Shown: positions 32,486 to 42,201 of the stretch, in pieces
How the letters are laid out: each line of letters begins with the position of its first letter
Numbering within the stretch: position 1 is the first letter of the stretch
The notes under the pieces: generated by a model
The model's input: the letters and a program-made list of their open reading frames with translations, nothing else
What the model was told of the DNA's origin: nothing
Databases searched by the model: none
Assembly (NCBI RefSeq): GCF_037081715.1
Contig: NZ_JAZDDH010000001.1
Span: 744,001-808,000, forward strand
DNA: 64,000 nt
Source: Halalkalicoccus sp. CG83
GTDB taxonomy: Archaea; Halobacteriota; Halobacteria; Halobacteriales; Halalkalicoccaceae
Reading direction: 5' to 3'
Program-made: the position numbers and the translations under genes

Positions 32486-32668
32486 GGGTAACTCATTCGG
32501 TTGTAGGTAGCAGCTGGCTATTCTCTATTTTCACTACAGCCGAACAGTGACCATCTCTGATCCGTACGCTCCCATTGTTGTTCAGTACGCTGAATAAACC
32601 CACCAAACTCCTTCCTGGGAGTCAATTTCTGGCTCTCAGACCGCCTTCTCATGAACTTTCAAGTTAAT

Positions 32669-32902
32669 CTACGCGACGGTCTTTGAAATCCATTCCTCAC
32701 CTTTATCCGAAATTTCATACAATCCCGTTTCTTTGTGGTGGTAGCGCACTAAATTATAGACCCGTAGCCATTTCAGACGTTCTCCAATATAATTCTCGTG
32801 TTTGTCGATCTGATCAGCTAATGATCCTCTCGTTTCTCGCCCTTTAGCGAGCAGCGTAAGGATTTCTCTGTCAGTATCGTTAAGATCGGAAGGGGTATTC
32901 AT
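32669..32902 (-). CDS. PhiH1-repressor-like winged-helix protein (cassette copy 1)
   Basis: The 77-residue protein has a winged-helix DNA-binding fold: DTDREILTLLAKGRETRGSL, a recognition helix around HENYIGERLKWLRVYNL, and a wing VRYHHKETGLYEISDKGEEW. It resembles the repressor family first known from halophage PhiH1. It is transcribed away from the zinc-finger operon. An 8-bp inverted repeat at 32974-32994 between them is a good operator candidate, so it probably represses both directions. The copy at 38859-39092 differs at only a few residues, for example Asp for Asn at residue 2. Confidence 0.85.
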   Translation of the reverse strand: MNTPSDLNDTDREILTLLAKGRETRGSLADQIDKHENYIGERLKWLRVYNLVRYHHKETGLYEISDKGEEWISKTVA

Positions 32903-32973
32903 TTAGCCATTATTCAACTGCGTCTGGTTTCATCCTTGTGTACTCTATCTACTTACTAGGACACACTTAATAG

Positions 32974-32994
32974 AAGTGTTCGAAAGGAACACTT
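32974..32994. promoter_or_regulatory. Candidate operator palindrome (copy 1)
   Basis: AAGTGTTC and GAACACTT form a perfect 8-bp inverted repeat with a 5-bp spacer. It lies 13 bp upstream of the TATA box at 33007-33013 and also within the upstream region of the repressor gene. Copy 2 keeps the arms (AGTGTTC/GAACACT at 39165-39183) but has a different spacer, as expected of a dimer-binding site. Confidence 0.6.
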
Positions 32995-33006
32995 GTACCA
33001 CAAAGT

Positions 33007-33013
33007 TTTATAG
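33007..33013 (+). promoter_or_regulatory. TATA box of the zinc-finger operon (copy 1)
   Basis: TTTATAG follows an A/C-rich element and stands about 25 bp before the start of the leader structure at 33039. The same box occurs at 39197-39203 in copy 2. Confidence 0.55.
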
Positions 33014-33038
33014 AGCATCCCTCCTACTATGAGCTGTA

Positions 33039-33096
33039 AAGCGCGGTATCGCCAGTAAGTAGAACTGGCCCGGTGGTGTCACACCGGACCGCGCTT
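33039..33096 (+). ncRNA. Structured mRNA leader folding as a three-way junction (copy 1)
   Basis: Three perfect stems nest without conflict. P1 pairs AAGCGCGGT (33039-33047) with ACCGCGCTT (33088-33096). P2 pairs GCCAGT (33051-33056) with ACTGGC (33064-33069). P3 pairs CCGGTG (33070-33075) with CACCGG (33082-33087). Only three junction bases (ATC) are unpaired. A ribosome site (AGGAG, 33104-33108) and the ATG at 33115 follow. All 58 bases are identical in copy 2 although the genes downstream have diverged. It may control translation or bind one of the encoded zinc-finger proteins; a DNA-level role is not excluded. Confidence 0.65.
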
Positions 33097-33114
33097 CCCC
33101 GATCAGGAGAAGCA

Positions 33115-33321
33115 ATGAGTCCTAGCAACCCACCATCAAAAAACAGTATCGCTCCAGCAGCCACTGTCGCGCAGCACATCAGTGGTCCCCACTGGGAGCT
33201 GCCGACGATTCCGAACGCGACCACGTACTGGCGGTGTACGTCCTGCCGGCGCGAATCAATCCGTGAGCGGGATCTCTATCAGGAGCGCTTCCACGCACCC
33301 GACTGCGAGGTGCGCCGATAA
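33115..33321 (+). CDS. Small zinc-finger protein (cassette gene 1, copy 1)
   Basis: I start at the ATG at 33115, seven bases after a clear AGGAG ribosome site; the frame is open farther upstream but would cross the leader structure. The 68-residue product has a flexible Ser/Pro-rich N-terminus and the C-terminal TTYWRCTSCRRES and ERFHAPDCEVRR, a C-x2-C...H-x3-C zinc-binding pattern. It is likely a nucleic-acid- or protein-binding adaptor. Its TAA overlaps the ATG of the next gene by one base (TAATG), so translation is coupled. No homologue with known function comes to mind. Confidence 0.75.
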   Translation: MSPSNPPSKNSIAPAATVAQHISGPHWELPTIPNATTYWRCTSCRRESIRERDLYQERFHAPDCEVRR

Positions 33322-33653
33322 TGCTGGTCACCGCACCCGTCGAACAACTGCTCACTGGCTTCCAACTCGCCGAAACCCGCTGTAGCTTTTGCAAGACCGC
33401 CCTCCAAGAGGGTGACACGGTCAGTGCCTACGCGGTTCAATACGCCGGTGACGAGTCGTGGTCCGTCCCACGCCTGTACTGCCGTACGTGTCGATCGACA
33501 ATCGAAGACCCGACGCTCGGCGCGACTGAGCTACTAGCCGAGGGCCGACTCGGGTTGACGATGGATGCCACGACTCAGCGGACGTCGCTGACGCTGCTCG
33601 GCATCGAACGCGTCGCTCAAAGCGCCCCGGAGGATGGTCGTGCCACGCTCTAA
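33321..33653 (+). CDS. Small zinc-ribbon protein (cassette gene 2, copy 1)
   Basis: The 110-residue product has two Cys pairs, RCSFCKTALQEGD and LYCRTCRST, about 30 residues apart, typical of a zinc ribbon. It continues with GATELLAEGRLGLTMD and a helical tail LTLLGIERVAQ. The gene starts inside the TAATG of the preceding gene and overlaps the next gene at its end. Function is unknown. Its metal site, small size and tight coupling suggest a subunit of a nucleic-acid-binding complex with its neighbours. Copy 2 at 39511-39843 keeps all four Cys residues. Confidence 0.8.
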   Translation: MLVTAPVEQLLTGFQLAETRCSFCKTALQEGDTVSAYAVQYAGDESWSVPRLYCRTCRSTIEDPTLGATELLAEGRLGLTMDATTQRTSLTLLGIERVAQSAPEDGRATL

Positions 33654-34260
33654 CGAATCGATCGCGGACGAGGCGACCGACGTCCGGCTCGACCGACTGG
33701 AGCGCGAGATGGTCCGCGAGGGATCGATCGAGATGGCCGCCGTCCGTCGCCTGCTTCATGGGCTGAGCGACGCCCCCACCGATGCCGATCCAGTCGCGAA
33801 GGTCGATGCGATCGTTGAGCGCATCGACACCCTCGAGACCGAGGTCCAACGCCTTGAGGCCCAACTCCGCGCTCAGCGCAACCAACAAAAGGGCACCAAG
33901 AAGGAACGCGCGAAACGTCGCGCGCGCAACGAGGTGCTCCGCCAAATTGATCGCGGGACGAACCCGATGGGCGGCGGATCAGTCGACGTCCCGACGGTGA
34001 TCACCATGGGCCACGGCCTTGGCGTTGAGTTCACCCACAAAACCATTGGCGACGCGTTCCGAGCACTTGCGACCGAGTGGGACTGCTTCGAGCTGCAGGA
34101 CGGCAGCGGCACCAAGGAGGGCGCGAACAAACGCCTGGTCGCGACCGGCGACGATGTCCCGGAGGCCCTCTGGCAGCTCTACGAAGCCGAGACCGGCGAG
34201 GAAGCAACCAGAGAGAACGCTTTCGCCGAAAGTAGCGACCGACCGAACAGGGGCGCCTGA
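33640..34260 (+). CDS. Coiled-coil/winged-helix-like protein (cassette gene 3, copy 1)
   Basis: The GTG at 33640 is conserved in copy 2 (39830), so I prefer it to the ATG two codons earlier. The product of about 206 residues starts with DVRLDRLEREMVREGSIEM, followed by a long coiled coil (VDAIVERIDTLETEVQRLEA, QLRAQRNQQKGTKKERAKRR) and a C-terminal domain with VPTVITMGHGLGVEFTHKTI and a KRLVA end that looks like a winged helix. It may bind DNA as a dimer. The overlap of 14 bp with the zinc-ribbon gene shows one operon. I do not recognise the family; replication or partition of a plasmid is one possibility. Confidence 0.8.
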   Translation: MPRSNESIADEATDVRLDRLEREMVREGSIEMAAVRRLLHGLSDAPTDADPVAKVDAIVERIDTLETEVQRLEAQLRAQRNQQKGTKKERAKRRARNEVLRQIDRGTNPMGGGSVDVPTVITMGHGLGVEFTHKTIGDAFRALATEWDCFELQDGSGTKEGANKRLVATGDDVPEALWQLYEAETGEEATRENAFAESSDRPNRGA

Positions 34261-34261
34261 G

Positions 34262-34339
34262 ATGGCCGTCTTCCAGCCCGTCGTCCCGCCGCCACCACTC
34301 TCGTCCGCTTCTCATCGCTACCGCACCAGTAGTAACTAA
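34262..34339 (+). CDS. Tiny Pro-rich reading frame (copy 1)
   Basis: One base after the TGA of the coiled-coil gene an ATG opens a 25-codon frame starting MAVFQPVVPPPP. Copy 2 has MAPFQPVVPPPLH, 13 codons, at the same place. Conservation of the first 10-11 residues and the stop-start spacing make a translated microprotein possible, but its length and end differ between copies. It is too short for a firm call. Confidence 0.4.
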   Translation: MAVFQPVVPPPPLSSASHRYRTSSN

Positions 34340-34351
34340 TCTCGCGGTAGC

Positions 34352-34406
34352 GGTGGGTCTCCCGCCTCGCACCGCATCGCATGCCGGATGCGAGGCGGAA
34401 CCCACC
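34352..34406 (+). terminator. Conserved long hairpin closing the cassette (copy 1)
   Basis: GGTGGGT (34352-34358) pairs with ACCCACC (34400-34406), and CCGCCTCGCA (34362-34371) with TGCGAGGCGG (34389-34398). Copy 2 has a comparable hairpin at 40546-40600 with altered bases that still pair. It is a possible terminator or processing site; no T-run follows directly. Confidence 0.5.
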
Positions 34407-34534
34407 CCGAGTCTCGCTACTTTCGACGACAGTATGTCCGATCGAACGATGTACGGTCTCATTTCCATTCGATACGGCCCGTATTGATCGCCCCTCCCAG
34501 AGGGTTTTTGATTGCCGCCGAACGAGTGTGATAC

Positions 34535-34678
34535 ATGAGCCTCACGGCCGATGATTTCGAACGATACTCTCAAGAAGACGACGACGAAGAACCGCTGGGC
34601 GACGCACTGGCAGCTCTCGCGTTAAACGTCGATGTCGACGCCGTCGATGAGGTTCGTGAGCTACGCGAGCGTACATGA
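34535..34678 (+). CDS. VapB-like antitoxin
   Basis: The 47-residue acidic protein (MSLTADDFERYSQEDDDEEP then LGDALAALALNVDVDAVDEV) ends in ATGA, where its TGA overlaps the ATG of the PIN-domain toxin gene. Position, size and acidity fit an antitoxin that binds the toxin with its C-terminal helix. No ribbon-helix-helix or AbrB motif is obvious. A near-identical 54-bp piece of this gene occurs at 54293-54352, next to other toxin-antitoxin relics. Confidence 0.7.
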   Translation: MSLTADDFERYSQEDDDEEPLGDALAALALNVDVDAVDEVRELRERT

Positions 34679-35064
34679 AGGCGTTTTTCGATACGAACGT
34701 TCTCGTTGCCGCCGTCGTCTCTGATGAACAACGATCGACCACTGCCGTTCGTCTACTAAACGAGATCGATGAGGGACATACGTCGATATTAAACGTAATG
34801 GAGCTCCGTAGCGTTCTCTCGAAAAAGAAGGCGTTCGAACGCGAGCGGATCGATCGAATCGAGGATCGTATCGCTCGTAAAACCACCGTAACGTTTCCTG
34901 ATGCCTCCGATATCGTAGCTGCGAATCAGTTGCAATCGGAGACGCTACTATATCCGATGGATGCGCTAATTCTCACATCCGCGGAATCAATTGACTCCCC
35001 GCTCGTCTCGTTCGATGCTGAATTGGTCGAACATGGCGCTATCGAGCCTGAAGAACTCCTCTGA
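34675..35064 (+). CDS. VapC-type PIN-domain toxin
   Basis: The 129-residue protein begins MKAFFDTNVLVAAVVSDEQR with the first catalytic Asp. It has ILNVMELRSVLSKKK with the Glu, LLYPMDALILTSAE with the third Asp and SPLVSFDAELVEH with the fourth. PIN domains of this type are Mg-dependent RNases that cleave tRNA or rRNA when the antitoxin is lost. It overlaps the antitoxin gene by 4 bp (ATGA). All four acidic positions are present, so it should be active. Confidence 0.85.
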   Translation: MKAFFDTNVLVAAVVSDEQRSTTAVRLLNEIDEGHTSILNVMELRSVLSKKKAFERERIDRIEDRIARKTTVTFPDASDIVAANQLQSETLLYPMDALILTSAESIDSPLVSFDAELVEHGAIEPEELL

Positions 35065-35456
35065 GGGACGTGGCGATAGTCCCCTGTCTCAAACAAGCTT
35101 CGTACCAGATCCTCGATCCGCTACGGTGCCAGCAACCGATGCCATCCCTTACGACGCCCGTGCGATCGTCCGTTCTCAGGTATCGACCAACGCTGCATAC
35201 CGCTGCTTCACCAACTGATCGAGTGTCGTCTGGTCCTCACCCATGACGCCGGCTGTTCGACCTGGGCTCAACGGCACCGAAGAATCCTAATCCTGAGTGC
35301 CCCATCCACTGGTCCGTTGAACGATTGCAGTCTGAACTCGTTGTCGTGTGAGATACGCGCTCTGTATGCAGCATGGACGCTGAGACCTATCACTCAGCTG
35401 CGGGTGGATCACGTGACGCTGAGTTCACAGAACGCTTACCTAAATTCAGGCGCTAA
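35065..35456. other. Noncoding stretch before the TnpB element
   Basis: No gene is recognised. A short minus-strand phrase MGEDQTTLDQLVKQRYAALV ends in a stop and could be a small relic. Confidence 0.3.
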
Positions 35457-35574
35457 GGCCCCTTCCTCAACGACCGAGCGAAGCGAGGTCGTAGGGAGGG
35501 GATACAGCGTTCACGAGACGCGAAGCGTCTCGTTAGCCAATCAGAACGCTTTGCGTTCTGATGACGCCGTCATC
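35457..35574. repeat. Hairpin cluster upstream of the DUF2080-TnpB pair
   Basis: A long hairpin (CCCCTTCCT...AGGGAGGGG with inner CGACC/GGTCG) at about 35458-35504 is followed by three short perfect hairpins, each with a 3-base loop: CGAGACGC-GAA-GCGTCTCG (35514-35532), CAGAACGC-TTT-GCGTTCTG (35542-35560) and GATGAC-GCC-GTCATC (35560-35574). They may belong to the element's left end. Confidence 0.65.
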
Positions 35575-35656
35575 GTCTGTCTTTCGTGCGATACTGCCGG
35601 CCCGCAGGCCCACGCCACCGGTATGCTTAACTATATGCAAACTATATACTCTGGTA

Positions 35657-35812
35657 ATGGATCGGTACGAAACCGACGACGCCAAAGAAGTCCTCGACCG
35701 AACCGTGAAACCGTTCGGGAGCGGTGGTGCTCACATCACTGTTCCGAAGCGGTGGATCGGTGCCGAGGTCAAAGTCGTCCGTGTTTCCGATCCCGATCCA
35801 TCCGACGAGTAG
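35657..35812 (+). CDS. DUF2080 transposon-encoded small protein
   Basis: The 51-residue product (VKPFGSGGAHITVPKRWIGA then EVKVVRVSDP) is the DUF2080 type that accompanies IS1341-like TnpB genes in haloarchaea. Its beta-rich fold resembles AbrB-like swapped-hairpin DNA-binding domains, so it may bind the element's own DNA; that is inference. It ends 3 bp before tnpB. The start is the only ATG before the conserved block and follows an AT-rich promoter region (AACTATATACTC). Confidence 0.85.
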   Translation: MDRYETDDAKEVLDRTVKPFGSGGAHITVPKRWIGAEVKVVRVSDPDPSDE

Positions 35813-35815
35813 GCC

Positions 35816-37093
35816 ATGCGCTACAACTACAGGTGTCGGCTCAAACCGACCGACGAACTCCACGAACGGTTAGCGTGGACTGTCGATACCTGCCGGCAGG
35901 TCTACAACCACTTCCTTCACCGACTCAACCGAGTAGACGGAACCTCCGCCTACTCCGAACAGTCACTCCTCCCCGACCTCAAACGCGAGTGGGACGATCT
36001 GAAGGACGTTCACTCGAAAGTGCTGCAGAAAGTCGTTCAGCGGTTGTACGACAACCTCTCGACGCTGAAGGGGCGGAAAGAGAACGGCTACCGCGTCGGC
36101 GAACTGAAGTGGAAGGCCCCGCAGGAATATCATTCGATTAAGTACAGTCAAACCGGCTTCAAGCTCAACAACACGAGCGGTCGGCCTGTACTCTCTCTTT
36201 CCACGATCGGCGACGTTCCGATGGTCTACCACCGCGAGGTCCCCGACGACGCTACGATCAAGGAGGTCGTCGTCAAGCAGGAGCCTACGGGCGAGTGGTT
36301 CGCCGTCCTCGGACTCGAAACCGAGAACGACACACCGCCGAAGCCCGAGAACCCCGAGCAGTGCGTCGGCATCGACGTAGGGATTCTCAAGTACGCCCAC
36401 GACAGCGACGGAACCGACGTCGAAGGTCCCGGCCTCTCGTACGAACGCGAGCGGTTGGAACGCGCACAACGCGACCTCTCGCGGAAGCAACACGGTTCGG
36501 CGAACTACCGCAAGCAACAGCGGGTCGTCGCCCAACGCCACGCCGACTTGAAGCGGAAGCGTCGGGACTTCCTCCACAAGCTCTCGAACTACTACGCTCG
36601 GGAATACGACCTCGTTGCTGTCGAGGACCTCGACGCGAAAGGGTTGATGGAACTCCCGTCGAACTCCCGCAACCGAGCATCCGCCGCGTGGGGGACGTCC
36701 CTTCGGATGCTCGAATACAAGTGCGAACGCGAGGGCACGCACTACGTTCCGGTCGATCCGCGCGGGACGACGAAGGAATGTTCCAACTGTGGCGTCGAAA
36801 CCGAGAAGCCGCTGTGGGTCCGCGAACACTCGTGCCCCTCGTGCGGGTTCGAAGCGGACAGGGACCTCAACGCGGCGTACAACATCCTTTCTCGCGGACT
36901 CACAGAAGTAGGGGTGGTTCACCCCGATTTAATGTGGTTCGAGAGAGCGGAGCTCTCTCGTCATCACGAAAGACGCGTAGCGTCTTTCGAACGACCTGCG
37001 GAGACTGCGCTCCCTACGGGAACCGATTCGGTTCCTGCAAAGCGCGTCTTGGAAACAGGAAGTCGTTCGAAAGGCGCAGAGCGCCTTTCGTGA
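35816..37093 (+). CDS. tnpB: TnpB RNA-guided nuclease of an IS200/IS605 (IS1341-type) element
   Basis: The 425-residue protein has the RuvC triad Asp187 (CVGIDVGILKYA), Glu270 (LVAVEDLDAKG) and Asp350 (DRDLNAAYN), and a zinc ribbon with Cys322, Cys325, Cys340 and Cys343. All key residues are intact. TnpB proteins are guide-RNA-directed DNA nucleases that help their element persist; the guide (omega) RNA comes from the 3' end of the gene and the right end. There is no tnpA, so the element is not self-mobile. The C-terminal 45 residues run through a block of hairpins (36940-37090), and the repeated phrases FERAE and FERPAE suggest an in-frame insertion there. Confidence 0.92.
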   Translation: MRYNYRCRLKPTDELHERLAWTVDTCRQVYNHFLHRLNRVDGTSAYSEQSLLPDLKREWDDLKDVHSKVLQKVVQRLYDNLSTLKGRKENGYRVGELKWKAPQEYHSIKYSQTGFKLNNTSGRPVLSLSTIGDVPMVYHREVPDDATIKEVVVKQEPTGEWFAVLGLETENDTPPKPENPEQCVGIDVGILKYAHDSDGTDVEGPGLSYERERLERAQRDLSRKQHGSANYRKQQRVVAQRHADLKRKRRDFLHKLSNYYAREYDLVAVEDLDAKGLMELPSNSRNRASAAWGTSLRMLEYKCEREGTHYVPVDPRGTTKECSNCGVETEKPLWVREHSCPSCGFEADRDLNAAYNILSRGLTEVGVVHPDLMWFERAELSRHHERRVASFERPAETALPTGTDSVPAKRVLETGSRSKGAERLS

Positions 37094-37117
37094 TCACGAG
37101 AGACCTTCGGTCTCTCG
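36940..37117. repeat. Array of five short perfect hairpins with 3-base loops
   Basis: The hairpins are 36940-36960 (9-bp stem, loop GGA), 36967-36989 (10-bp, loop GTA), 37019-37035 (7-bp, loop ATT), 37068-37090 (10-bp, loop AGA) and 37097-37117 (9-bp, loop TTC). Each has a different stem sequence but the same form. Four lie inside the end of tnpB and one after it. Confidence 0.85.
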
Positions 37118-37120
37118 GAC

Positions 37121-37170
37121 GACCCCGTCCTCAGCGAGGCCGCAAGGCCGAGCAGGGCGGGGTAGTTCAC
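37121..37170 (+). mobile_element. Right end and putative omega-RNA 3' hairpin of the TnpB element
   Basis: CCCCGTCCT pairs with AGGGCGGGG around an inner GGCCGCAAGGCC hairpin, ending in GTAGTTCAC. The same block without a full tnpB occurs at 50737-50784 and 59955-60012. By analogy with known TnpB elements the bases after TTCAC would be the guide. Confidence 0.7.
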
Positions 37171-37196
37171 TTTTCTACCCGCCTACATTCAATGTA

Positions 37197-37502
37197 ATGG
37201 ACAGAACGTCGACCGACACTGATCCACGATCATTCGGATCGCGTGTCCGCGAGCGACTCGGGTCCATTAGCCCGGTTTCCCTGGCGATGCTGGGCTTTCT
37301 CAGGTTCCTCGGGAACACGTTCACCCGGCTGGAGGTTCTCCAGGTGTTCCACCTGTTCTGGCTGTTCGCGCTGTGGCCAGTGGTCTCTCTGCTGATCGGC
37401 GCCGTCAAGCAGTCGATCGGCTACGAGGGGGACGACCCAGGCCCGCGTGACGGACTGCAGACCGTGTTCTCGTCGTTCTTCCCGAGTTCGATCGACCGGT
37501 AG
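37197..37502 (+). CDS. Small hypothetical membrane protein
   Basis: The 101-residue protein has a polar N-terminus, an amphipathic stretch FLRFLGNTFTRLEVLQVF and one strong hydrophobic segment WLFALWPVVSLLIGAVKQ, so it is probably membrane-attached. I do not recognise the family. It begins 26 bp after the right end of the TnpB element and is convergent with the VapBC pair downstream. GC-rich codon use fits the host. Confidence 0.55.
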   Translation: MDRTSTDTDPRSFGSRVRERLGSISPVSLAMLGFLRFLGNTFTRLEVLQVFHLFWLFALWPVVSLLIGAVKQSIGYEGDDPGPRDGLQTVFSSFFPSSIDR

Positions 37503-37577
37503 TCCTCTCTCGGTTCGGTTTCTCGGTTCGGTTCGGTTCGTTTTCGGCCGAGGACCGGTCGGATCGTTCCTCCCGAA

Positions 37578-37973
37578 CTAGTCGTACGCCTCGACGGCCA
37601 ACCCGTCGACGCGCTCGAAGTCGCCGTCGCGAGTGACGATCGTTCCGCCAGCCTCGCGGACGATGCCCGCGATCAGCATGTCCACGGCGTTGATCGGCGC
37701 GCCCCGATCGAGCAGCTCGGCCTCGATCAGCGCCGCCTCCCGAACCGCCGCCGTGGTCACGGGGAGTGCCTCGAACCAGTCGAGCGCCGAGGCCGTCCTC
37801 GCGACGCCATCCTGGCGGTCGGCCTGCGCGCCGTATCGCAGCATCTCCCACAGGACGGGCGTCGGAACGTACCATGTCCCGTCGTACCCCTCGATCACCG
37901 CGGCCGCTCGCTCGTGACCGGCGCTGTCGGAGCGCAGGTAATCGCTTAGGAGGCTACTGTCCAAACAGTTCAT
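37578..37973 (-). CDS. vapC: VapC-type PIN-domain toxin
   Basis: From the ATG at 37973 the product has 131 residues and starts MNCLDSSLLSDYLRSDSAGH with the first catalytic Asp. It has VPTPVLWEMLRYG with the Glu, INAVDMLIAGIVREAGG with the third Asp and IVTRDGDFERVDGL with the last acidic residues. It should be a Mg-dependent RNase toxin. The start overlaps the antitoxin gene by 20 bp. The frame is open farther upstream, but that part reads as antisense of the antitoxin. Confidence 0.88.
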   Translation of the reverse strand: MNCLDSSLLSDYLRSDSAGHERAAAVIEGYDGTWYVPTPVLWEMLRYGAQADRQDGVARTASALDWFEALPVTTAAVREAALIEAELLDRGAPINAVDMLIAGIVREAGGTIVTRDGDFERVDGLAVEAYD

Positions 37974-38187
37974 CGTGATGCTCGTCGATCTCCTCGCCCA
38001 GTCGCGCGTGGCGTTCGTCGTGATCGATGCCGGCGTCGGTCCCGTCGAACAGTCCGCGGGCCTTCGAGGGGTCGGCACGTGCTGCCGTGAGGCGGGTAAC
38101 GACATCGCTGAAGCTCTCGTCCTCGCGTTTGTGTGATTTGAGGCGCTCGTAGGCATCCTCCGTGATTGTGAGCGTCTTTGTCACCAT
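37954..38187 (-). CDS. vapB: VapB-type antitoxin (DUF217-like)
   Basis: The 77-residue protein starts MVTKTLTITEDAYERLKSHK with the ribbon-helix-helix-like N-terminus of archaeal VapB antitoxins (REDESFSDVVTRL), followed by a toxin-binding acidic tail GIDHDERHARLGEEIDEHHD. It overlaps vapC by 20 bp. A perfect 7-bp inverted repeat TACACGT/ACGTGTA at 38187-38206 covers its start, which fits self-repression by the VapBC complex. Confidence 0.88.
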   Translation of the reverse strand: MVTKTLTITEDAYERLKSHKREDESFSDVVTRLTAARADPSKARGLFDGTDAGIDHDERHARLGEEIDEHHDELFGQ

Positions 38188-38206
38188 ACACGTAAACGTA
38201 CGTGTA
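38187..38206. promoter_or_regulatory. Candidate VapBC operator
   Basis: TACACGT and ACGTGTA form a 7-bp inverted repeat with a 6-bp spacer at the 5' end of vapB, in the place where VapBC complexes bind to repress their own promoter. Confidence 0.5.
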
Positions 38207-38357
38207 TACGTAACTTAAGCGTGGCGGGGATTGGTTTCGGCGTAGCGTCTCAGTTCGTCTGCTACTGACGCTGGCGAAGTGTGCGCGAGACGACGCTCGA
38301 GGCCTCCCCTATCGGTTGCGACTCTCTGATACGGGATCGGTCCTCGCCAATGAACGG

Positions 38358-38681
38358 ATGGACTTCTATGAGTACGACGAAACCCATCTAATACTCAAAC
38401 ACTACAGATATGTGCCTGAAAACGATGAACAAAACGCCTCGAGAAGAGAAAAACTGAACGCTCTCATTAGCGTCGCCAAGTACAGACCGAAGCTCACACT
38501 TGGAATATTCGTCGAAGAGGACATCGTAGCGTGTCATGGATGGCCGTCTGAACGGGGTCCAGTTTCCGTTCTCGGTCTAGGTGAATTATGGGCTTCTAGA
38601 TTTTTAGAGCCAACATCGCTTTCGATCGCACTAGTGAAATGGCAGTCCGTAGAGTGGTACGGGACAGGACTAGGGGGGTAG
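38358..38681 (+). CDS. Hypothetical protein whose 3' half is duplicated with the cassette
   Basis: From the ATG at 38358 the product has 107 residues (MDFYEYDETHLILKHYRYVP at the start; SERGPVSVLGLGELWASRFL near the end). It looks folded, with mixed strands and helices, but I do not know the family. The frame is open for 14 codons upstream without a good start, so it may be truncated at the 5' end. The last 58 codons belong to the duplicated cassette; the copy at 32319-32485 is decayed. AT content is higher than in the VapBC genes upstream. Confidence 0.45.
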   Translation: MDFYEYDETHLILKHYRYVPENDEQNASRREKLNALISVAKYRPKLTLGIFVEEDIVACHGWPSERGPVSVLGLGELWASRFLEPTSLSIALVKWQSVEWYGTGLGG

Positions 38682-38858
38682 CTCATTCGGTTGTAGGTAG
38701 CAGCTGGTATTCCCTATTTTCACTACAGCCGAACAGTGACCAGCTATGATCCTTACGCTCCCCAATGTTGCTCAGTACGCTGAACAAACCCACCAAATTC
38801 CTTCCTGGCAGTTGATTTTCGGCTCTCAGACCGCCTTCTCATGAACTTTCAAGTTAAT

Positions 38859-39092
38859 CTACGCGACGGTCTTTGAAATCCATTCCTCACCTTTATCCGA
38901 AATTTCATACAATCCCGTTTCTTTGTGGTGGTAACGCACTAAATCATAGACTCGTAGCCATTTCAGACGTTCTCCAATATAATTCTCGTGTTTGTCGATC
39001 TGATCAGCTAATGATCCTCTCGTTTCTCGCCCTTTAGCGAGCAGCGTAAGGATTTCTCTGTCAGTATCGTTAAGATCTGAGGGGGTATCCAT
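38859..39092 (-). CDS. PhiH1-repressor-like winged-helix protein (cassette copy 2)
   Basis: The 77 residues differ from copy 1 at only two visible places (Asp2 for Asn, and RVYDLVRY for RVYNLVRY). Such close identity in a gene whose cassette partners have diverged more suggests that both repressors recognise the same operator and could cross-regulate. The winged-helix layout is the same: recognition helix near ENYIGERLKWL and wing around HHKETGLYEI. It is transcribed divergently from the zinc-finger operon. Confidence 0.85.
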   Translation of the reverse strand: MDTPSDLNDTDREILTLLAKGRETRGSLADQIDKHENYIGERLKWLRVYDLVRYHHKETGLYEISDKGEEWISKTVA

Positions 39093-39164
39093 TTAGCGAA
39101 TATTCAACTGCGTCTGATTTCATCCTTGTGTACTCCATCTACTTACTAAAACACCCTTAATAGC

Positions 39165-39183
39165 AGTGTTCTATAGGAACACT
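39165..39183. promoter_or_regulatory. Candidate operator palindrome (copy 2)
   Basis: AGTGTTC and GAACACT form a perfect 7-bp inverted repeat with spacer TATAG, at the same place relative to the TATA box (39197-39203) as the palindrome in copy 1. The spacer differs between copies while the arms are kept. Confidence 0.6.
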
Positions 39184-39228
39184 TGCACCACAAAGTTTTA
39201 TAGAGCACCCCTCTTACTATGAGCTGCA

Positions 39229-39286
39229 AAGCGCGGTATCGCCAGTAAGTAGAACTGGCCCGGTGGTGTCACACCGGACCGCGCTT
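39229..39286 (+). ncRNA. Structured three-way-junction leader (copy 2)
   Basis: The 58 bases are identical to 33039-33096 in copy 1 and form the same three stems. The base change nearest to it (GAGCTGC versus GAGCTGT) lies outside the structure. The ribosome site AGGAG and the ATG at 39305 follow at the same distance. Confidence 0.65.
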
Positions 39287-39304
39287 CCCCGATCAGGAGA
39301 AGCA

Positions 39305-39511
39305 ATGAGTCCTAGCAACCCACCATCAAAAAATAGTATCGCTCCAGCAACCACTGTTGGGCAGTATATCAGCGGCCCGTACTGGGAGCCGCCGACGATC
39401 CCGAACGCGACCACCTACTGGCGATGTAGGTCCTGTAATCGTGAATCAACCCGGAAACAGGATCTCCACCGGAAGCGGTTCCATGCGCCCGACTGCGAGG
39501 TGCGCCGCTAA
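39305..39511 (+). CDS. Small zinc-finger protein (cassette gene 1, copy 2)
   Basis: The 68-residue product keeps the Ser/Pro-rich N-terminus MSPSNPPSKNSIAP and the Cys/His pattern YWRCRSCNRES...RFHAPDCEVRR of copy 1, while the linker between the Cys pair and the His is changed at many places (STRKQDLHRK versus SIRERDLYQE). The metal ligands are therefore under selection and the linker is free. The TAATG overlap with the next gene is also kept. Confidence 0.75.
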   Translation: MSPSNPPSKNSIAPATTVGQYISGPYWEPPTIPNATTYWRCRSCNRESTRKQDLHRKRFHAPDCEVRR

Positions 39512-39843
39512 TGCTGGTTACCGCGCCCGCCGAACAGCTCTTGACCGGCTTTCAACTCGTGGAAACGCGCTGCAGCTACTGTAAGAGCACCCTCCAAGAG
39601 AGTGATCGCGTCAGCGCCTACGCAGTTCGGTACGCCGGCGACGAGTCGTGGTGCGTCCCCCGCCTGTACTGTCGAACGTGTCGATCGACAATCGGGGAGC
39701 CGACGCTCGGTGCGACCGAACTATTGGTCGAGGGTCGCCTCGGCTGGACGATGGATGCGGCGATTCAGCGGACGTCGCTGACGCTGCTCGGCATCGAACG
39801 CGTTATTCAGAGCGAACCGGAGGACGGCCGTGCCACGCTCTGA
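39511..39843 (+). CDS. Small zinc-ribbon protein (cassette gene 2, copy 2)
   Basis: The 110-residue product matches copy 1 in length and keeps both Cys pairs (RCSYCKSTLQESD and LYCRTCRST). Changes such as QYAGDESWS to RYAGDESWC add a fifth Cys here. The reading frame overlaps the next gene by 14 bp. Conservation of length, Cys residues and overlaps in two diverged copies argues that the protein is made and works with its neighbours. The function is unknown. Confidence 0.8.
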   Translation: MLVTAPAEQLLTGFQLVETRCSYCKSTLQESDRVSAYAVRYAGDESWCVPRLYCRTCRSTIGEPTLGATELLVEGRLGWTMDAAIQRTSLTLLGIERVIQSEPEDGRATL

Positions 39844-40453
39844 GGGATCGACTGCGGACGGATCAACTGACGCCCGCCTCGACCGACTGGAGCGCGAGAT
39901 GGTCCGCGAGGGATCGATCGAGATGGCCGCCGTCCGCCGGCTCCTCCACGGCCTGAGCGACACCACGGCCGACGCCGATCCAGTCGCAAAGGTCGACGCG
40001 ATCGTCGAGCGCATCGAGACACTCGAGACCGAGGTCCAACGCCTTGAGGCACAGCTACGCGCTCAGCGTAACCAACAGAAGGGCACGAAAAAGGAACGCG
40101 CGAAACGCCTCGCACGCAACGAAGTGCTCCGTCAGATCGATCGCGAGACGAACCCGATTGGCGAGGGCGGTGCCGTGGACGTCCCGACGGTGATCACAAT
40201 GGGGTACGGACTGGGCGTCGACTTTACCCACAAGACCGTCGGTGACGCGTTCCGGACACTCACCACCGAGTGGGACTGCTTCGAGCTGCAGGACGGTAGT
40301 GGTACGAAGGAGGGCCCGAACAAACGGCTGGTCGCCTCTGATGATGCGATCCCCAAAGCCCTCTGGGAATGCTACCGAGCTGACACCGCCAAGACAGCAA
40401 CCCCTGAGACCACTGTCGGCGAAAGTAGCGACGACACGAACGAGGTGTGCTGA
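39830..40453 (+). CDS. Coiled-coil/winged-helix-like protein (cassette gene 3, copy 2)
   Basis: The gene starts with GTG inside the end of the zinc-ribbon gene. The 207-residue product keeps the N-terminal RLDRLEREMVREGSIEMAAV, the coiled coil ETLETEVQRLEAQLRAQRNQ and the C-terminal VPTVITMGYGLGVDFTHKTV and WDCFELQDGSGTKEG. The last 35 residues differ most from copy 1. It is probably a DNA-associated dimer, by its basic coiled coil and wing-like end. It stands about 280 bp from the convergent orc1/cdc6 gene, which may hint at a replication-related element. Confidence 0.8.
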   Translation: MPRSEGSTADGSTDARLDRLEREMVREGSIEMAAVRRLLHGLSDTTADADPVAKVDAIVERIETLETEVQRLEAQLRAQRNQQKGTKKERAKRLARNEVLRQIDRETNPIGEGGAVDVPTVITMGYGLGVDFTHKTVGDAFRTLTTEWDCFELQDGSGTKEGPNKRLVASDDAIPKALWECYRADTAKTATPETTVGESSDDTNEVC

Positions 40454-40454
40454 G

Positions 40455-40496
40455 ATGGCCCCGTTCCAGCCCGTCGTTCCACCGCCCTTGCACTAG
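40455..40496 (+). CDS. Tiny Pro-rich reading frame (copy 2)
   Basis: An ATG one base after the TGA of the coiled-coil gene opens 13 codons, MAPFQPVVPPPLH. The first residues match the 25-codon frame at 34262. It may be a leader-like microprotein or chance; only the conserved start supports it. Confidence 0.35.
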   Translation: MAPFQPVVPPPLH

Positions 40497-40545
40497 TCCA
40501 CTACTAGCCGTGTCCTATTGCCTGTAATTAACATCTCGGTAGTAG

Positions 40546-40600
40546 TGGGTCTACCGCCTTGCACCGCTTCGCATGGACGGTGCGAGGCGGGACGGACCCA
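40546..40600 (+). terminator. Conserved long hairpin closing the cassette (copy 2)
   Basis: TGGGT (40546-40550) pairs with ACCCA (40596-40600), and CCGCCTTGCACCG (40554-40566) with CGGTGCGAGGCGG (40578-40590) with one T-G wobble. The paired bases differ from copy 1 but still pair, so the structure rather than the sequence is kept. Confidence 0.5.
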
Positions 40601-40730
40601 GTTTCTCGCTACTTTCGACGAAAGTAGCTCTGGAAGCTCCAAGTTCACAGGAGAATCGCCAGTAAAACATCGCCACTGGTACGAGTCGGCTACCGCGACT
40701 GTTCCTCTCCTGTTTGGTTCGAACAGGGAG

Positions 40731-41933
40731 TTAGGAAAGGTCGGGATGGTTCTCCCTGATTTCTCCGGCGAGCTGGGGATCAAACGTCGTTTTGTGTTGC
40801 TTCACTCGCCCCTCGCGCCCTCGTGATTCGATCCAGGTTTCGAGCAATCCCATCGTTTCGAGATCTGTAACGACGCCTTGAATTGCCCGCTTTCCTAATG
40901 GTGGGTTTAAGATAATCCCCCTTTCCATCGACTCACGTATCTGCTCTGTAGTTACAGGTTGGACGATCTCACCGGTTTGTTTATCTGTCCAACTGGTGGC
41001 TGCTACTAAGACCCCTACATGATTTAACGGTAGCTGAGTTAGCTTCTCCATGATTGCGTTCTGTTCTGTCGCTTCAAGACTATCATCAATGCACTCTCTT
41101 GTCACGGTCGCTAATTCACGTTGATTTGCTATTTCTCCTGCATTACGAAATAGGGTCAGACCTTTGCGTGCATCGCCCCAGCGAGTTGCAGCCTGTCTTG
41201 TTCCATGCTTTGCTGCTCCTGGTGTGACGGATTCGTCGGCAAATGCACGCACTAGACGTGGAATGAGAATGTCGGCTAACTCATGGAATCCATATGGACC
41301 GAAAAACACCTCTTCAGTACTCATCGCACTTTCGACCCTGCTGTCGAGGCGGAGATCCACCTCGATGAGTCGGTTGCTGATCAGCCACACGGAGAGATCG
41401 ATCCCGCGTTTAAGCTTCCCCTCGCCGCGCAGTAGTCGGTAGAGAAACTCGTTTGGATCGTAGTTCGTGTCGTGCTGGAGCTGGTCGATCTCGTCGAGGA
41501 TCAGGACCGTATACTGCGGGTACGCCTCCAGCGCGATCCAGATCCCCTCGAAGACGCCGTCCAGTCCTTCATACGACTTCTTCCGGTCGCCGGTTAGTTC
41601 GAGATAGATCTCGTTGGCCGCGCTGAAGATCGTTCGACACTCCTTGAGATTCACGTACTCAACAGCAAGATCCTCGGTCCGAGCGGCGAACTCCTCAGCG
41701 ACTCGTCGCGTCGTCAGGGTCTTTCCCGTTCCGGGCGGTCCGTGGATCGAGACGGTCGGCGGGAGATAGCCCTCGTGGATACCGTTGAGGATCGTCGCGA
41801 GTTCGCGCTCCTGTTCATCACGGGCGATGATCTCGTCCGGTTCGGCTAACGGATCGAGCGCGCCTTTGTCGGCGAAGACGCTGTCAGCAGGGGCCGTCTC
41901 GTCGAAGAGATCGTCGTACTTGTCTGATCCCAT
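40731..41933 (-). CDS. orc1: Orc1/Cdc6 replication initiator
   Basis: From the ATG at 41933 the product has 400 residues, the normal length for an archaeal Orc1/Cdc6. Walker A is GPPGTGKT (65-72) and Walker B LILDEID (144-150). Arg-rich sensor regions and the C-terminal winged helix (AIQGVVTDLETMGLLETWIE) that binds origin repeats are all present. It should load the replicative helicase at a plasmid-type or secondary origin. No clear origin repeats are seen beside it. The frame is open for 26 codons upstream, but that part reads through an insertion-element end at 41944-41992. Truncated copies lie at 5632-6024 and 47125-47586. Confidence 0.92.
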   Translation of the reverse strand: MGSDKYDDLFDETAPADSVFADKGALDPLAEPDEIIARDEQERELATILNGIHEGYLPPTVSIHGPPGTGKTLTTRRVAEEFAARTEDLAVEYVNLKECRTIFSAANEIYLELTGDRKKSYEGLDGVFEGIWIALEAYPQYTVLILDEIDQLQHDTNYDPNEFLYRLLRGEGKLKRGIDLSVWLISNRLIEVDLRLDSRVESAMSTEEVFFGPYGFHELADILIPRLVRAFADESVTPGAAKHGTRQAATRWGDARKGLTLFRNAGEIANQRELATVTRECIDDSLEATEQNAIMEKLTQLPLNHVGVLVAATSWTDKQTGEIVQPVTTEQIRESMERGIILNPPLGKRAIQGVVTDLETMGLLETWIESRGREGRVKQHKTTFDPQLAGEIRENHPDLS

Positions 41934-41943
41934 TTTTAAACAG

Positions 41944-41992
41944 CGAGCGAATCCCGTCCTGAGGCCGAAGGCCGAAGGGCGGGCGGGAATCG
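41944..41992 (+). mobile_element. Solo TnpB-type right-end hairpin upstream of orc1
   Basis: CCCGTCCT...AGGGCGGG encloses the inner hairpin GGCCGAAGGCC, the same fold as the right end at 37121-37170, though without GTAGTTCAC. It lies only about 10 bp before the orc1 start and may have replaced the native promoter. Confidence 0.45.
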
Positions 41993-42201
41993 CGTAAGTC
42001 CCTCTACGCAAACAGCGTTATTCTGCATTGCTGGATTCCCCACGTTCGTTGTCAATACACTCTCTGACGAGGCTTGACAGGTTACTGTGATTCTCTCGCA
42101 TTCACTCCTCCTGTTCTTTCGTGATTGTGACGTTTCTTCGCTCCACAACCTATTGTCTGGGGTTCAATATAATTAAGCGTGAATGATGTGTAGCGTGTGG
42201 T

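Follow-up and report, generated by a model that had tools for sequence, protein, structure and literature searches.

Haloarchaea mostly use leaderless mRNAs. A genome-wide start-site study of Haloferax volcanii found 72% of transcripts to be leaderless and judged control by structured leaders atypical for haloarchaea (PMC4983044), and in archaea the fluoride riboswitch of Thermococcus kodakarensis was, as of PMC8241225, the only riboswitch shown experimentally. Stem-loops in haloarchaeal 5'-UTRs are needed for translational regulation (Brenneis and Soppa, PMC2636863), and the homing endonuclease genes of T4-type phages (I-TevI, segB, mobE) carry hairpins that sequester the ribosome-binding site (reviewed in PMC2988022).

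The leader described here lies in a window of 64,000 nt (the whole stretch of Halalkalicoccus sp. CG83 DNA that was analysed) and combines a three-way junction of helices P1, P2 and P3 with a hairpin, P4, at the start codon of the gene behind it. From sequence comparison and folding models we consider it probable that this leader is a bistable cis-acting translational RNA switch in which P1 and P4 exclude each other. Judged by analogy, the T4-type endonuclease hairpins are its nearest functional parallel: in both cases mobile-element genes, HNH endonucleases included, have mRNA structure at their start site that can block initiation, which for the leader is a prediction from the position of P4, 0–1 nt before the AUG, also at the HNH gene of virus contig L158. 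The T4-type hairpins are single and are removed by a late promoter, whereas the haloarchaeal leader has a three-way junction with a competing start-codon hairpin, occurs in archaea before many gene types and is made from its own promoter; its TATA box precedes P1 and no late promoter is apparent inside it. With bacterial translational riboswitches it has in common a junction closed by P1, the 3' strand of which is shared with the start-site helix; unlike them, it has no apparent conserved ligand pocket and usually no Shine-Dalgarno sequence. As in the mRNA leaders of ribosomal-protein and phage repressor systems, the structure is compact, near the start and suited to protein binding, but no single encoded protein stands behind it. 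The 5'-UTRs of Brenneis and Soppa, for their part, act with 3'-UTRs, belong to two studied genes and define no conserved RNA family (PMC2636863).

Rfam 15 gave no family match in positions 32500–41000 of the window, a sub-threshold miRNA match lying elsewhere only, and a scan of seven homologous loci returned tRNA only; identity with a known RNA family was dropped, since no Rfam family matches the leader. The literature search found no description of the leader RNA and nothing for the locus tag of the Halobacterium salinarum leader. The guess of a new archaeal leader element, made in the original prediction, agrees with these searches. The features of the first cassette copy are:

32669–32902, minus strand: divergent small winged-helix (wHTH) gene with weak matches to HTH_5 and SdpR-like proteins, probably an autorepressor of the cassette
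32971–32997, no strand: inverted repeat TAGAAGTGTTC-n5-GAACACTTGTA, candidate operator, upstream of the TATA box
33006–33012, plus strand: TATA box TTTTATA, from sequence, its position conserved among homologues
33039–33096, plus strand: three-way junction P1–P3, from sequence, folding and covariation
33039–33047 with 33088–33096, plus strand: P1, 9 bp, AAGCGCGGT with ACCGCGCTT
33051–33056 with 33064–33069, plus strand: P2, 6 bp, GCCAGT with ACTGGC
33070–33075 with 33082–33087, plus strand: P3, 6 bp, CCGGTG with CACCGG
33093–33113, plus strand: P4 hairpin, GCTTCcCC (33093–33100) with GGaGAAGC (33106–33113)
33115–33321, plus strand: gene 1, 68-aa zinc-finger-like protein
33115–33153, plus strand: codons 1–13 of gene 1, with nucleotide-level conservation, probably part of the module
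33321–33653, plus strand: gene 2, 110-aa zinc protein
33640–34260, plus strand: gene 3, coiled-coil protein

The three nested stems that had been predicted (9, 6 and 6 bp) are present exactly, and of the junction only ATC (33048–33050) is unpaired, which accounts for the three junction bases counted at that time. The 58-nt RNA has a minimum free energy of –34.2 kcal/mol against –17.7 ± 2.5 for dinucleotide shuffles (z = –6.5; 0 of 200 equally good). The picture of three stems was nevertheless incomplete: it missed P4, the helix that abuts the start codon, and the conserved RNA leader is larger, the 58 bases making up only its first half. The tightest constraint is found at the P3 apex, GUG-YURGNR-CAC, with a six-base loop whose second position is U in 65 of 69 sequences. 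L2, J1/2 and most of L3 are variable, strong constraint being confined to L3 position 2 and the closing pairs of P3, a helix without any G-U pair, which counts against the switch. CTGGAA, the common P3 loop, is replaced in several leaders (L061, L069, L076 and L092) by its reverse complement TTCCAG, as though the tip of the hairpin had flipped.

The stems are maintained by compensating changes. A sequence-only MAFFT alignment of 17 leaders, not fitted to structure, shows double-sided change in 9 of 21 pairs versus 3.1 ± 1.0 in shuffles (0/500). After 60 loci had been fetched, 78 distinct leaders were aligned, this time with fitting to structure (which applies neither to the 17-leader alignment nor to the protein-fetched loci considered below): 93.6% of stem cells are paired, versus 78.9% in shuffles and at most 47% with slid partners, and 20 of the 21 base pairs, in 211 cells, have undergone double-sided compensatory change, the outcome that a covariance-model check had been proposed to look for. 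Among 25 sequences thinned to under 65% identity, 19 of 21 pairs still show it, although such controls remove phylogeny incompletely. Perfect inverted repeats on mobile replicons might also be a DNA element (a cruciform, or a recombination or replication site), and compensatory changes by themselves would suit single-stranded DNA too. Pair changes in a cruciform or recombination site should show no strand preference, however, and here stem G-U exceeds A-C by 75 to 31, the direction expected for RNA read on the plus strand; the model scores the window at 86.2 bits on that strand versus 15.9 on the other, and the place of the leader between TATA box and AUG is fixed. A DNA element is thus hardly credible, and the compensating changes, the G-U excess and the fixed TATA distance support transcription of the leader as RNA.

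In the window the TATA box lies about 27 bp before P1, close to the 25 bp or so given originally. In 80 homologues the median start of the TATA-like hexamer is at –34 relative to P1, from which the usual haloarchaeal spacing between TATA box and start would place the expected transcription start a few bases 5' of P1. The leader had been said to end about 8 bp before a ribosome site; this is true of the window copy (GGAG, 33106–33109) but not of the majority of homologues, in which a Shine-Dalgarno sequence is absent.

In front of the AUG nearly all leaders can form P4. The window copy takes GCTT from the 3' strand of P1 and stops 1 nt before the start codon; over the homologues the distance from the end of P4 to the AUG is 0 (38 sequences), 1 (30), 2 (2) or 4 bases (1). 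Native sequences have 6.7 contiguous P4 pairs, versus 5.65 ± 0.15 with 3' arms swapped among sequences and 3.2 in shuffles, and fewer than 5 contiguous bp are found in about 9% of sequences. P4 covaries, as P1 does, with the variants GCTTCTC/GAGAAGC, GCTTCTG/CAGAAGC, GCTTCGTG/CACGAAGC, GCTTCAG/CTGAAGC and GCTTGG/CCAAGC. The strongest evidence for P4, by sequence comparison independent of the RNA model, is provided by loci fetched with the gene-2 protein, in which both helices have new sequences: P4 is TGCTGG/CCAGCA in L137, L143 and L145 and GGGTTC/GAACCC in L153 and L155, each time with a new P1 that shares a strand with it. A further locus of the host genome (L135) has GGCTG/CAGCC ahead of a SWIM gene. 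Mutual exclusion of P1 and P4 thus persists in distant copies even where the sequence is completely replaced.

Two states were compared, B with P4 forced and A with the 3' arm of P4 kept open. The median energy difference between them is 0.6 kcal/mol (mean 1.1, SD 2.8), and the window copy has –37.5 (A) and –37.3 kcal/mol (B); the parameters are those for 1 M NaCl, not for haloarchaeal cytoplasm, so that absolute values are indicative. In 75% of natives state B is better than state A or at most 3 kcal/mol worse, versus 29% when the sequence 3' of P1 is shuffled.

These features suggest how the proposed switch might work. The mRNA, starting a few bases 5' of P1, would carry the leader in its 5' region, and P2, P3 and P1 would fold first behind the RNA polymerase (state A), leaving a single-stranded landing strip ahead of the AUG. 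The P1 5' sequence recurs right before the AUG (GAAGC), and this repeat could capture the P1 3' strand (GCUUC...) to form P4 flush against the start codon (state B). As P4 requires opening of the outer half of P1, the two states would be exclusive while close in energy. Translation would be the controlled step, with mRNA in state A translated and mRNA in state B blocked, and a factor recognising the junction or the P3 apex would set the balance, most likely a trans-acting protein, next an ion or a metabolite. Because the genes change and the leader stays, such a factor is likelier to come in trans, from the host or as a common element protein, than to be the product of the first gene. With the divergent wHTH repressor, the leader would give the mobile-element genes two layers of control. 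The mutually exclusive structures that define a riboswitch are present at the level of structure and covariation only, not of control itself.

The leader is widespread. A model built from 17 leaders of the genus and a neighbouring genus found matches across the whole order, and the second covariance model matched 199 of 394 genomes of the host order, in 68 of 95 genera (E ≤ 1e–4, model E-values being rough), many of them with two to eight copies. All 26 matches in a phylum-wide sample of 295 genomes fall inside the host order. Halalkalicoccus matches are among them, and the host genome itself has two more strong copies with changed sequence, plus weaker ones. On Haladaptatus plasmids the DNA match covers the leader only and the genes have none, while pNRC200 and pHS3 of Halobacterium salinarum carry the leader (26.7 bits, E about 1.5e–4) before the gene of a 71-aa protein and facing a wHTH gene. 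On pNRC200 it lies at 219771–219857 of the minus strand, ahead of VNG_RS11530. Haloarcula pNG700 gave no leader match. A first virus scan with a pattern ending in AATG had no match, and further patterns led to virus contigs. On the IMG/VR contigs L157 and L159 the leader precedes tyrosine integrases (that of L157 is Pfam Phage_integrase and 54% identical to the L159 protein), and on L158 it precedes an HNH endonuclease gene. Four more contigs were left out of the count, L160, L161 and L162 for having no model match and L163 for a weak truncated one. An annotated phage collection gave no match by DNA or protein, and a protein search for gene-2 relatives among viral contigs found none.

The genes associated with the leader vary. 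In 83 leader loci, homologues of the wHTH gene are present in 54, typically diverging 150–220 bp upstream of gene 1, and the gene-2 zinc family in 49; DWCDGP or SWIM-type zinc proteins occur in about 35, the window-type first gene follows the leader in 22 and the coiled-coil gene 3 in 8. The remaining leaders stand before genes of SWIM proteins, HNH endonucleases or integrases or before mini-ORFs, some first ORFs having just 17–30 codons. Given this variety, the link with the zinc-finger or coiled-coil protein, put forward as a possibility in the original prediction, is not supported as a general one. Protein family and structure searches with genes 1–3 and the wHTH gene gave no informative function. 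Loci that keep the genes and lack the pairing, named at the outset as an argument against the element, do exist in part: of 20 loci picked for carrying the second gene, 12 have no convincing leader match, and for this reason the leader is a separable module with no fixed partner among the genes.

Conservation does continue past the AUG. In window-type genes the majority codon accounts for 92% at codons 1–13 versus 78% further on, with GC3 of 0.53 versus 0.79, and in 80 loci codons 2–13 follow a common nucleotide pattern, ACTACGAAC ... GAAAAGCGTATC or GAAAACAGTATC, also where the encoded proteins are otherwise unrelated and in the ORFs of just 17–30 codons. Because synonymous variation is reduced in these early codons, the functional module probably extends into the gene. 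Pairing of the leader with them was considered and dropped, the match being short (AAGCG/CGCUU) and restricted to EKR-type starts. In L074, L098, L099 and L112 the leader stands before a 23-codon ORF (MTSNT.SVEKRIDYQ...); this ORF and the next gene share one base, which suggests that their translation is coupled.

Other explanations of the conserved leader have to be weighed against the switch. A cassette protein might bind the junction or the P3 loop and repress its own translation, as would suit the tight constraint at the P3 apex and the small zinc proteins behind most leaders. We consider this autoregulatory arrangement unlikely, if not to be dismissed, as no single downstream protein family accompanies all leaders: the wHTH gene, the commonest neighbour, is missing or was not recognised at 29 of the 83 loci, and a regulator gene in the operon of every member, the mark of an autogenous leader, was not found, no family tested being present in all 83. 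It is also rather improbable that a metabolite or a metal ion is sensed, possibly zinc in view of the many downstream proteins that are zinc-binding by motif. The aptamer-like architecture and the exclusive start-site hairpin would fit such a riboswitch; however, loops and junction are poorly conserved in sequence, unlike those of known aptamers, the highly conserved unpaired nucleotides of a ligand pocket are not seen, and the integrases and HNH endonucleases downstream have no metabolic link. With so few unpaired bases conserved, a classical small-molecule pocket is not apparent.

The near-equality of the two folds would also be expected of an RNA thermometer or salt sensor, in which temperature or salt shifts the balance without any ligand, yet such a device needs neither a conserved three-way junction nor a constrained P3 apex, and we regard it as decidedly improbable. 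Finally, the leader might not switch at all: P1–P3 could protect the 5' end or insulate the mRNA, with P4 a separate element such as a processing site. P4 ends at 0 or 1 base from the AUG in 68 of 71 cases, tighter than simple masking requires, and cleavage before the AUG would yield the preferred leaderless substrate, the form of 72% of coding transcripts in Haloferax volcanii (PMC4983044). Independent elements would have no need to overlap, however, and P1 and P4 use one common strand in every family seen, even where their sequences are fully replaced, so we give a fixed structural leader little weight.

Should the bistable switch be correct, the leader would join the very small number of natural RNA switches in archaea, would reveal how start sites are gated when no Shine-Dalgarno pairing is needed and would identify a control module common to haloarchaeal mobile elements. 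That about half of the genomes sampled in the order carry a conserved RNA, which is also present on a plasmid of H. salinarum, argues against structured leaders being atypical. Whether the leaders form a large class of regulatory RNA in haloarchaea that has not been described before, a portable bistable translation-control module (leader plus first codons) of plasmids, integrated elements and viruses that answers a common trans-acting cue and acts without a Shine-Dalgarno sequence, we consider evenly balanced.

The window contains a second cassette copy:

38859–39092, minus strand: second divergent wHTH gene
39229–39286, plus strand: second three-way junction, identical to the first
39283–39303, plus strand: second P4, offset +6190, identical sequence

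The 58-nt identity reported originally is confirmed and belongs to an even longer run of 106 nt (33038–33143) that covers the remainder of the leader and reaches through codon nine. Further on, the genes have indeed changed at many sites (81–83% identical between the copies). The divergent wHTH gene upstream is likewise 97% identical, however, so the identity of the two leaders is by itself weak evidence. Copy 2 keeps the inverted repeat as AGTGTTC-n5-GAACACT.

Several other features were seen in the window. A second structured region lies at the end of gene 3 (34215–34435 and, in the other copy, 40410–40630; z = –7.0 and –5.9), where CGAAAGTAGCGA pairs with TCGCTACTTTCG about 180 nt further on, around a long GC-rich hairpin; across 7 homologues this outer stem hardly varies, with covariation at only a few pairs. 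Between the cassette copies are an IS605 OrfB/TnpB-type gene (35816–37093, plus strand) and toxin-antitoxin pieces, namely a VapB-type antitoxin (37954–38187, minus strand) next to a possible PIN-type ORF (37578–38156, minus strand) and a separate PIN-domain gene (34675–35064, plus strand). A Cdc6/Orc-type replication initiator gene (40731–42011, minus strand) adjoins the second copy, suggesting an integrated replicon.
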